The position numbers were made by a program, and so were the translations under genes. The notes beneath the pieces are model-generated. The model was not told the origin of the DNA. It was given only the letters and a program-made list of their open reading frames with translations, and made no database searches. This document shows, in pieces, positions 7,266 through 9,816 of a stretch of DNA of 29,512 nucleotides (its first letter is position 1; every line of letters begins with the position of its first letter). The DNA is from a virus, in the IMG/VR virus record IMGVR_UViG_3300028800_002381, positions 1 to 29,512 of that record. The stretch is one strand, 5' to 3'.

Positions 7266-7494
7266 GATAATTGGAAGTGTAAATGGACAAATGGATATTA
7301 AACGCTTCCACCTCCCTGGTGTAAAAATTGAGGATAATTGTCCTGACTGTCTAAAACCTATACATTGGAATGGCGATTCTGACTATCTAGGCTATCCTAA
7401 ACTCAATTCGCCTGTAGATTTTTATTTTAATTGCACGGATTGTGGTAAAAGCTGGACAGTTCAAGGAAGTCTTGCCATCTCTATAAACCTATGA
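7258..7494 (+). CDS. Zinc-ribbon protein
   Basis: The 78-residue protein has two CxxC pairs, CPDC (about residues 28-31) and CTDC (about 59-62), separated by about 30 residues. This is the layout of a zinc ribbon, as in many small phage proteins that touch nucleic acid or RNA polymerase. GGGAG precedes the ATG and the start overlaps the previous stop by 8 nt. It is the last gene before the 1.2-kb RNA region. Confidence 0.7.
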   Translation: MAKIIGSVNGQMDIKRFHLPGVKIEDNCPDCLKPIHWNGDSDYLGYPKLNSPVDFYFNCTDCGKSWTVQGSLAISINL

Positions 7495-7506
7495 TAAGTT
7501 AAAGTT

Positions 7507-7585
7507 TGGGGCGTATCCCCTCACTCTTATAAGGTGTAGAAAGGGTAATTAGTACACGTAGGTGCAATTCCTACCGCCCCAACCA
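7507..7585 (+). tRNA. Unusual tRNA-like RNA, perhaps tRNA-Ile(TAT)-derived
   Basis: These 79 bases have a perfect 7-bp acceptor stem (TGGGGCG/CGCCCCA), T8-A9, discriminator A and encoded CCA. The T stem is perfect (GTAGG/CCTAC), but its loop is TGCAATT, not TTCAATT. A hairpin CACT-CTTATAA-GGTG could serve as an anticodon arm with anticodon TAT, but the D arm is missing and a longer insert lies after it. Alternative pairings CCCT/AGGG and GTGTA/TACAC compete with this arm. A TGA-TAAGTT box at 7492-7500 ends 7 nt before base 1, with TTGCCA 17 nt further up, and the CCA is followed by TTTT. It is a decayed tRNA or tRNA mimic. Confidence 0.45.
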
Positions 7586-7596
7586 TTTTAAAGCTA

Positions 7597-7605
7597 TGAT
7601 ATACT
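7597..7605 (+). promoter_or_regulatory. Extended -10 box ahead of a structured RNA
   Basis: TGATATACT (7597-7605), inside CTATGATATACTATAG, which closely resembles CTATGATATACATAG at the sigma-factor promoter (19348-19362). No -35 is recognisable. Transcription would start near 7612. Confidence 0.5.
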
Positions 7606-7611
7606 ATAGTT

Positions 7612-7866
7612 AAGACTTTGATTTTGGGTCGGTATTCCTAATTCGTGCCTAGAGCCGTAGAGGTAACTCCTTCCCGAAAACCTGGTGTCGGCGCGATAGA
7701 TGTAGGCCGCTTATGTGGCCACTGACCCAACAGCAAGAAAATGACTCTTAAGCAATGGGCTCTCACCCGAATGTTGATTTAGCCTAGGGGCACCAGGAAC
7801 TTTTTATTTGGGCTTCATGTGGGCAACCGCATGCGGTGGGCCTTTCATCTCACTCGACCAAAATAT
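7612..7866 (+). ncRNA. Structured RNA with a probable pseudoknot, class unknown
   Basis: About 255 bases hold no gene but several perfect helices: TTGGGTC (7624-7630) with GACCCAA (7724-7730), and CCTGGTG (7681-7687) with CACCAGG (7791-7797). These cross each other, forming a pseudoknot. Local hairpins include GAG-GTAA-CTC (7660-7669), GGCCGC-TTAT-GTGGCC (7705-7720) and CATGTGG-GCAA-CCGCATG (7816-7833), two of them capped by GNRA loops. ATTTTGG (7621-7627) can also pair with CCAAAAT (7858-7864), marking possible ends. An extended -10 box precedes it. It may be independent or the 5' part of one giant RNA reaching 8680. Confidence 0.5.
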
Positions 7867-7914
7867 TACCTCCTTGGGTAGCCCATTAGTTTTATGGAAT
7901 ATTGGAAAGAAAAA

Positions 7915-8028
7915 ATGACTTGTTTCTTTGTTGGACACTGGATTGGTAAGGTAGGACTCTTCATTCAAAATGAAGATGGCAGTACCACTGAAAAACCAGG
8001 ATGTCTTAGATGTAGAAAAGTTTTTTGA
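7915..8028 (+). CDS. Tiny Cys/His protein between two structured RNAs
   Basis: This encodes 37 residues (MTCFFVGHWIGKV... GCLRCRKVF). The layout of an N-terminal Cys and Gly-His, a short beta segment and a C-terminal CxxC is that of a minimal zinc-binding phage protein, reminiscent of DUF1660-type small proteins. The start at 7915 is preferred to an in-frame ATG 21 nt upstream because GGAAAG lies before it. The reading frame sits between two structured RNA segments. Confidence 0.5.
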   Translation: MTCFFVGHWIGKVGLFIQNEDGSTTEKPGCLRCRKVF

Positions 8029-8039
8029 ATCAGATATGA

Positions 8040-8680
8040 AAGGGTTCCACGGCGGATTAATCTAGGCGATGTCTAGACCCTCTTTCAGACCTGCACGGTG
8101 ATGCCACGTGGCGATGTGGCTAAGGACGTGCCTGAAACGGGCCTGAAATCGGTAACGCGCCGAAGGATGGTCCGTGTAGGTTTAAAGTTAGCAGGGGAGT
8201 GATTCTTACCAGCCCGTTTGATTCGGATGCCGGGTGAGATGCCGGGCTGCTAATTCGTTTTGGTAGGGGCGTCGAACTCACAATGCGGTGAGGGAAAGCA
8301 CGGGTCACTCGTGGCCTGCGGGAATATGCTAACGAGGTCTGGCTGGGAACTTTGATTGCAATCATCGTAACCCGAGATACGCAGTGCCCCGCGTCGGAAT
8401 TAAGCAGCCGATCTACCAATTAATTTCAGTCACGTAATTGAACGCCACTGTTCTGTGGCGCAGATGAAAAGATCGGGTAGAGCACGTGACGATAACCCGA
8501 TCACTCTTACCTGTGTATGTTGACAGGTTTGGCGGCGGCGCGGGAAGCTGTATACGGGGCCATTAGCTATTAAGGCTATCCGTCTAGAGACGCGCAAGAG
8601 AGAAAACTCTGCTCACACCAACTCTAACGTGGAGAAGGGTCAGACAAGTGAGATGGCCGGATTCGCGCCCGGCCCGCCAT
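8040..8680 (+). ncRNA. Large structured non-coding RNA of about 640 nt
   Basis: This stretch has no gene, is GC-rich and is full of long-range complementarity. A three-part stem joins TTTCAG/CTGAAA, GCACG/CGTGC and GCCAC/GTGGC (8083-8137). TTAGCAG pairs with CTGCTAA (8188-8194/8247-8253), CTCAC with GTGAG, CGCCAC with GTGGCG, ACCTGT with ACAGGT (8509-8528) and GGCCGG with CCGGCC (8655-8674). GATCGGGT/ACCCGATC (8471-8502) carries in its loop ACGTGAC, which matches GTCACGT at 8429-8435 and forms a 7-bp pseudoknot. The 3' end GCCA is followed by TTTTATT. Size, tRNA-rich phage context and fold density recall the GOLLD and ROOL classes, but I cannot confirm either. Confidence 0.55.
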
Positions 8681-8704
8681 TTTATTATTTAAAATAAGGA
8701 ATAT

Positions 8705-8866
8705 ATGCTATCTAAAATATGGATTGCTATTAAGATGTTGGGAGTATTTTTAGTACTTTTCTTAGTGCTTGGTCTATTGTTTCAAGGCATGTTAACACTT
8801 AAATGCTTAAGTGAGCAACCTGGTACACAAGTAGTTATCGGTGGCAATTCTGTTAGATGCCCCTAA
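8705..8866 (+). CDS. Single-pass small membrane protein
   Basis: This encodes 53 residues. AAGGAAT lies 5 nt before the ATG. One hydrophobic helix (about residues 9-32, rich in Leu, Val and Phe) is followed by a short exposed tail with two cysteines (C34 and C52) that could form a disulfide outside the cytoplasm. No lipobox. It stands alone downstream of the large RNA. Function unknown. Confidence 0.6.
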   Translation: MLSKIWIAIKMLGVFLVLFLVLGLLFQGMLTLKCLSEQPGTQVVIGGNSVRCP

Positions 8867-9048: not shown

Positions 9049-9816
9049 TTATGCCGCCCTTTGAGCTAAATAGGCGTCAAAGCCTTCTTCTTTATATTTA
9101 ATATTTCCAGCTTTATCGAAACCGAATCCACGGGACAAATAAACCAAAGTGCAGCGACAATGAGGGTGTAATCCAAATGCGGAGGGAGCGTCTTCGCCGC
9201 GTTTATGGTACGACTGCTTCAGCTCTGATAGTTTCCAAATGCGCGGGGTAACCTGGTCTGGCATTAGATGCAAACGAATGCATTCCTTGCATGTTACGTT
9301 GTCTTTAATTACTACAAAAAATACAGACGGATCTTCATCACCTATGGATGCGGATACTGCAGTAATGTCCATCATTGTGCCCAAATTGCGTAATTTGGTA
9401 CTTTCATATTCAGCAATGGCTTCTAAATTGCTTTTAGCCTTTTTAAATTCTTCATTTACAATAGCGTCTATTTCTTCTTTTTCTATTTTACGCTTTTGAA
9501 GTTTTGATTCCCTAGCCAATCCATCTAATCTCTCTGTGATGTTGGACATAGTTTTATGTTTTAAAGATTCAATATGCCCATGGGAAGTAGTGAGCAAACT
9601 CTTTAGGACACCCCTTTCAATGGAATTAGGGGTTTTATTTTTCATTGCCTGGACAAATAAATTGGCCAGGCCGAGATTAGGAGAGGCAGAAATAACAAGT
9701 CTTTTCTTGTCTTGAAGTTTAGGAATATCGCCTATAAGCTGTAAGGCGATATTATCAAAGATATCCTCTACAATCTTATTGAGAGATTCTTTTCCTATAG
9801 AGGAGATCCCGTACAT
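9049..9816 (-). CDS. Head morphogenesis protein, Mu gpF-like
   Basis: The 255-residue protein ends in the signature of phage Mu gpF / SPP1 gp7-type minor head proteins: C176-x2-C179 followed by RLHLMPD, then GLHPHCRCTLVY with His219, Cys220 and Cys222. The first 140 residues are charged and helical. Proteins of this family bind the portal and help head assembly, and some are carried into the virion. It is the last gene of the minus-strand head module, directly downstream of the low-complexity protein and the portal, the usual order. Confidence 0.85.
   Translation of the reverse strand: MYGISSIGKESLNKIVEDIFDNIALQLIGDIPKLQDKKRLVISASPNLGLANLFVQAMKNKTPNSIERGVLKSLLTTSHGHIESLKHKTMSNITERLDGLARESKLQKRKIEKEEIDAIVNEEFKKAKSNLEAIAEYESTKLRNLGTMMDITAVSASIGDEDPSVFFVVIKDNVTCKECIRLHLMPDQVTPRIWKLSELKQSYHKRGEDAPSAFGLHPHCRCTLVYLSRGFGFDKAGNIKYKEEGFDAYLAQRAA

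Follow-up and report, generated by a model that had tools for sequence, protein, structure and literature searches.

Three phage contigs share a structured RNA that defines a new and narrow family, whose carriers so far are distant relatives of Myxococcus phage Mx1. In one of them the RNA consists of a conserved core, a 343-nt extension confined to this contig, and a 3′ domain (Table 1). This contig is the 29.5-kb virus record IMGVR_UViG_3300028800_002381 of IMG/VR, positions 1-29,512, and the whole of this stretch is called the window here. The family is real, new and small, it includes a lineage-specific expansion, and it is ordinary in kind. Phage genes of the window encode a portal protein, a large terminase, GroEL, a DNA ligase, a helicase and SbcC/SbcD-like proteins, and by portal protein Mx1 is the closest annotated phage (47.6% identity). 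A sequence-only reading had pointed to positions 8040-8680 as a possible giant RNA of about 640 nt in a phage region with several RNA genes. The RNA genes are indeed there: a tmRNA, a tRNA-Ala and a weak tRNA-like stretch. The tmRNA scores 83.6 bits with Rfam, and ARAGORN makes no call for it.

Table 1. Features of the window that surround or make up the structured RNA
Feature	Position	Strand	Details
tmRNA	657-1019	same as 8040-8680	Rfam
tRNA-Ala	2066-2141	same as 8040-8680	2066-2138 by Rfam
Weak tRNA-like stretch	7507-7582		just under Rfam cut-off
Extended -10-like box	7597-7605	+	TGATATACT; before element A; likeness in sequence only
Element A, second conserved structured stretch	7615-7812	+	nhmmer E ~1e-23 to 1e-24 to L002:6690-6872(-)
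37-codon ORF	7915-8028	+	MTCFFVGHWIGKVGLFIQNEDGSTTEKPGCLRCRKVF; between element A and core
Conserved core, two stem arms and short crossing helix	8085-8181	+	homologues L002:6588-6684(-), L020:19672-19769(-)
First arm	8085-8135	+	8085-8088/8132-8135, 8093-8097/8127-8131, 8103-8107/8116-8120; 7 pairs changed on both sides
Crossing helix	8089-8092/8178-8181	+	ACCT/AGGT; pseudoknot with first arm
Second arm	8137-8175	+	8137-8141/8171-8175, 8149-8152/8160-8163; 4 pairs changed on both sides
Extension, only in this contig	8185-8527	+	hairpin 8471-8478/8495-8502; pseudoknot 8429-8435/8484-8490
3′ domain	8528-8681	+	closed by 8530-8535/8674-8679; interior varies among the three phages

The conserved core

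Relatives of the phage were gathered by their terminase and ligase, and their DNA was then compared with the window by nhmmer and blastn. Two contigs, both from uncultured phages, match the core: L002, whose terminase is 81% identical, and L020 (79%). The core alignment therefore holds three contigs (the window, L002 and L020), all of one phage group. Across six short helices, 11 of the 27 core pairs have changed on both sides and still pair, against 3.9 in shuffled alignments and 0 when the partners are slid; no shuffle attains 11. A plain three-way reading of the core gives 10 of 25 pairs. Paired cells amount to 98.8% in the three-sequence alignment versus 23.5-39.5% with slid partners, a figure that is partly circular since the structure was read from the same sequences; the independent part of the evidence is the both-sided changes. 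While the stems vary in their letters, the loops stay fixed: TGGCGAT in the first arm (8109-8115) is invariant in the three phages, as is the ACGCG part of TAACGCG in the second (8153-8159). The folding energy of 8086-8185 lies well below that of shuffles on the plus strand (z -3.2) and less so on the minus strand (-1.8). G-U pairs fit the plus strand only, so that the RNA is read from this strand, and no open, conserved reading frame runs through the core of the three sequences. With covarying stems common to different phages, here three contigs, as the mark of a new family, a conserved structured RNA on the plus strand is nearly certain.

Three of the four pairs of the crossing helix never vary, and the fourth is an A-A mismatch in L020. 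The helix is thus conserved but unproven by covariation, because its pairs hardly vary. It probably locks the two arms of the core. Alternatively, the four pairs may be the inward end of an ordinary closing helix, 8087-8092/8178-8183.

The 640-nt stretch, its extension and its 3′ domain

As a unit of 640 nt, the stretch 8040-8680 folds only slightly better than shuffled sequence. Its z value is -1.4, with 5 of 60 shuffles equally good, and was -2.1 in an earlier run of 20 shuffles on 8030-8690; coding controls lie between +1.3 and -1.9, and the tmRNA reaches -3.0. Perfect helices of at least 7 bp number 5 against 1.7 in shuffles (p 0.025). The description of the stretch as GC-rich and gene-free holds: its GC fraction is 0.54 versus 0.35-0.44 in twelve coding stretches, and it contains only two minus-strand ORFs with TTG starts (99 and 55 aa), neither of which has a Pfam match. 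The helices reported for it are also present. The pseudoknot GTCACGT/ACGTGAC is a perfect complement at its coordinates, and the hairpin GATCGGGT/ACCCGATC pairs perfectly, with letters and coordinates right. A further hairpin at the 5′ end, 8038-8045/8077-8086, occurs in the window only and was left out of the structure count. Neither end of the 640 nt shows a clear promoter or terminator, and the best promoter-like likeness at about 8021-8040, upstream of the core, ranks fifth in the window, not above chance.

The extension makes up over half of the 640-nt stretch. The linker at its site is 5 nt long in L002, 2 nt in L020 and 343 nt in the window, and no homologue of it was found by blastn against annotated phages or by DNA comparison with the relatives. 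Its folding energy (8186-8528, z -1.0) falls inside the range of the coding controls. It has 5 perfect helices of at least 7 bp where shuffles have 0.8 (p 0.005), but among the five are two couples that share bases and so exclude each other: 8188-8194/8247-8253 with 8210-8216/8243-8249, and 8408-8414/8470-8476 with 8471-8478/8495-8502. Because it has no homologue, the fold of the extension is a single-sequence hypothesis. The extension may be an elaboration of one linker in the compact RNA, which measures about 200-250 nt in L002 and L020.

The helix that closes the 3′ domain covaries weakly. It is paired in 95% of cells and 2 of its 7 pairs have changed on both sides, a count reached by 58 of 500 shuffles; these statistics are weak because the helix is short. 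The z value of the 3′ part is -1.0.

These results divide the earlier claims. A new structured phage RNA stands, with a core that covaries in three phages and has no Rfam match, and its extent of 640 nt is only partly borne out. A giant RNA would apply at most to this contig, since the homologous RNA of the relatives is compact, and the pseudoknot on which that reading leaned lies in the insert that has no homologue. The comparison of related phages that had been proposed as a check gives clear covariation in the core and a weak signal in the closing helix, and the 343-nt insert is absent from the relatives. The strong evidence comes from the core, by its folding energy and covariation, a region that the sequence-only reading had not singled out.

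Search for further members

Rfam includes models of ROOL and GOLLD. When 7450-8760 was searched by cmscan with all Rfam 15 families, none reached its cut-off over 8040-8680, and none was plausible up to E 10. The proposed kinship with GOLLD or ROOL thus finds no support in the Rfam models. At gathering and permissive thresholds, Rfam likewise gave nothing over 8040-8680 or its counterparts in L002 and L020. Two core patterns scanned over viral contigs returned L002 and L020 only. A looser pattern gave 80 matches there, which outside these two contigs scored at most 14.8 bits, the chance level. Among genome contigs there were 26 matches, the best at 18.3 bits (E 0.08) in DNA of 72% GC, and these were taken as chance. 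The core model was run on 40 records of relatives, on 9 further records, Mx1 among them, and on 189 genomes from a single bacterial phylum, and it found the known members only; a 16-bit match in record L028 was also taken as chance. Blastn against annotated phages yielded a single match of 27 bases, again chance.

Upstream sequences and other structured stretches

Element A, upstream of the core, is conserved in L002. Its fold from two sequences has 6 pairs changed on both sides, weak evidence at this number of sequences. In L002, element A directly precedes the core; the sequence between them is free of ORFs, and one promoter-like box stands before A. In L020, the core has no adjacent A, and a short piece of the A hairpin lies about 12 kb away. 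Element A is related context of the core, and one shared RNA is not proven. A reading of element A as RNase P, based on GAGGTAACTCC and ACAGCAA, was rejected, since Rfam gave no match for it.

The 37-codon ORF between A and the core also stands directly before the core in L020, where it has its own box, and is absent from this place in L002. It behaves like a coding gene: tblastn gives 68% identity (4e-14), and the mismatches by codon position (9, 7 and 16) show the third-position bias.

In this phage group, an extended -10-like box with TGATATA stands ahead of almost all genes for tRNAs, tmRNA or other RNAs. In the window such boxes occur at 533, 642, 2051 and 7597, a few bases upstream of RNA genes. 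Immediately before the core there is no clear one, and the box at 7597 is the only clear one upstream.

Other parts of these genomes also contain gene-free stretches. Behind tRNA-Ala, 2142-2424 of the window is a second structured one (z -2.2). It includes a motif at 2296-2394, TCCTACG...GGTAGGAGT, after which comes a stem with changes on both sides (GTCCGAA/TTCGGAC, GTTCGAA/TTCGAAC, GTCTGA/TCAGAC). This motif recurs in L014, L016, L019, L032 and L177, and a scan of viral contigs found it only in this phage group and L177. The gene-free stretch 340-540 ends in a hairpin and a run of T, and it is followed by a tRNA-like sequence at 545-618 that neither ARAGORN nor Rfam calls. GC-rich gene-free stretches (L019:16360-16998(-), L014:11450-11745(-) and L012:17320-17745(-)) occupy the slot between the counterpart of the window gene 9049-9816 and the ligase. 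Those of L014 and L019 adjoin tRNA-Met-like sequences; they are related to each other (E ~1e-11) and unrelated to the window core, and that of L019 is about 340 nt longer than that of L014. In L005, L020, L024 and L033, the counterpart of gene 9049-9816 is divided or repeated in part, its pieces lying about 1.1 kb apart, for which an intron, an intein or a duplication are candidates. Given these other gene-free structured stretches and the shared TGATATA box, the RNA described here seems to be one among several in this group that are still unexplored.

Comparison with known phage RNAs

In way of life the RNA comes closest to GOLLD and ROOL, and by the Rfam models it belongs to neither. ROOL is an RNA of phages and prophages, 659 nt in one example, that lies near tRNA islands, has a variable linker and no known function; it has a P1-P19 architecture and forms a homo-octameric RNA cage (PMC12286853). 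GOLLD, also a phage RNA near tRNA islands with a variable linker and no known function, is often longer than 800 nt, has a universally conserved 3′ region and a less conserved 5′ region, and forms a homo-14-mer cage (PMC12286853). The present RNA resembles ROOL in its location, on the contig of a phage that also carries a tmRNA, a tRNA-Ala and a tRNA-like stretch, a kind of setting shared by many unrelated RNAs. However, the ROOL covariance model is unmatched up to E 10, the P1-P19 architecture is absent here, and the unit conserved in the relatives is only about 200-250 nt. With GOLLD it has in common the combination of conserved and variable regions in a phage setting near tRNA genes. Here, in contrast, the conserved part is small and lies 5′ while the 3′ domain varies, and the GOLLD model is unmatched in the window, L002 and L020. 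The phage's own genes for tmRNA and tRNA lie on the same strand and have the same promoter-like box as element A, but their models give no match over 8040-8680, and the tmRNA of the phage is a separate gene.

Possible roles

As a whole, the observations are best explained by a plus-strand structured RNA of core and 3′ domain that acts as a stand-alone RNA. We give this reading slightly better than an even chance, and put the production of such an RNA during infection at much the same level. Transcription would start either at the TGATATA box ahead of element A or at a weaker site ahead of the 37-codon ORF, and processing would follow. Tentatively, the folded RNA may then act in trans, through a bound protein or through contacts made by the invariant loops TGGCGAT and TAACGCG, in the manner supposed for accessory phage RNAs beside tRNA genes. 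Pairing between the loops would involve three letters (GCG/CGC) or the palindrome CGCG only, and it is a lead only, since chance often gives such pairing. The RNA might even represent a new class of phage RNAs that form RNA-only or RNA-protein assemblies via the two invariant loops; it would then have taken up a large lineage-specific domain, and its phage group would have several unrelated large RNAs beside tRNA genes, but this is a long shot.

Other explanations differ in where the transcript begins and in what it serves. The core could be the 3′ part of a longer transcript (about 7611-8680) with element A, the 37-codon ORF, the core and the 3′ domain, in which A and core are domains of a single RNA. 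The arrangement of A and core in L002 and the position of the only clear upstream box in the window suit such a transcript, whereas in L020 the missing neighbour, the box before the ORF and the distant hairpin piece indicate that A and core are separable; we consider it rather improbable. A cis-acting leader that controls the small membrane-protein gene at 8705-8866 is doubtful to a greater degree. An ORF with a hydrophobic stretch does follow closely in the window and L020, but the small proteins of the two show no evident likeness, and no Rfam riboswitch or leader family matches. Moreover, the RNA of L002 ends against a convergent gene, at that gene's 3′ end, and no gene follows in the direction of the RNA, which argues against a simple leader.

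That the extension is an intron or another mobile ribozyme landed in the compact RNA is very unlikely. It does occupy a linker of 2-5 nt and is missing in both relatives, but it has no ORF of known domain, and up to E 10 it matches none of the ribozyme families of Rfam, group I and group II introns included. The packaging RNA of phi29 is small, has several arms, and pairs from copy to copy through its loops. An RNA ring of this kind at the portal, held by loop-loop contacts, would fit the compact two-arm core, its invariant loops and the location of the portal gene about 2 kb away, with terminase also near. However, the pRNA model of Rfam 15 is unmatched up to E 10, neighbourhood alone is weak, and, as far as their records extend over the region, the majority of relatives that share the terminase and portal lack the RNA, so that this role is scarcely credible. 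Just as improbable is that there is no functional RNA and that GC-rich sequence folds by chance. The energy of the whole stretch, barely beyond shuffles, would agree with it, but the pairs kept through changes on both sides already refute it for the core, though not for the extension.

Phages have yielded few large structured RNAs to date, and GOLLD and ROOL among them have no known function. This phage group appears to hold several such RNAs, of which the present one has so far a narrow range of three contigs. A covarying core of about 100 nt, together with a natural version that carries 343 nt extra, would make a small and tractable system for questions on the roles of these RNAs.
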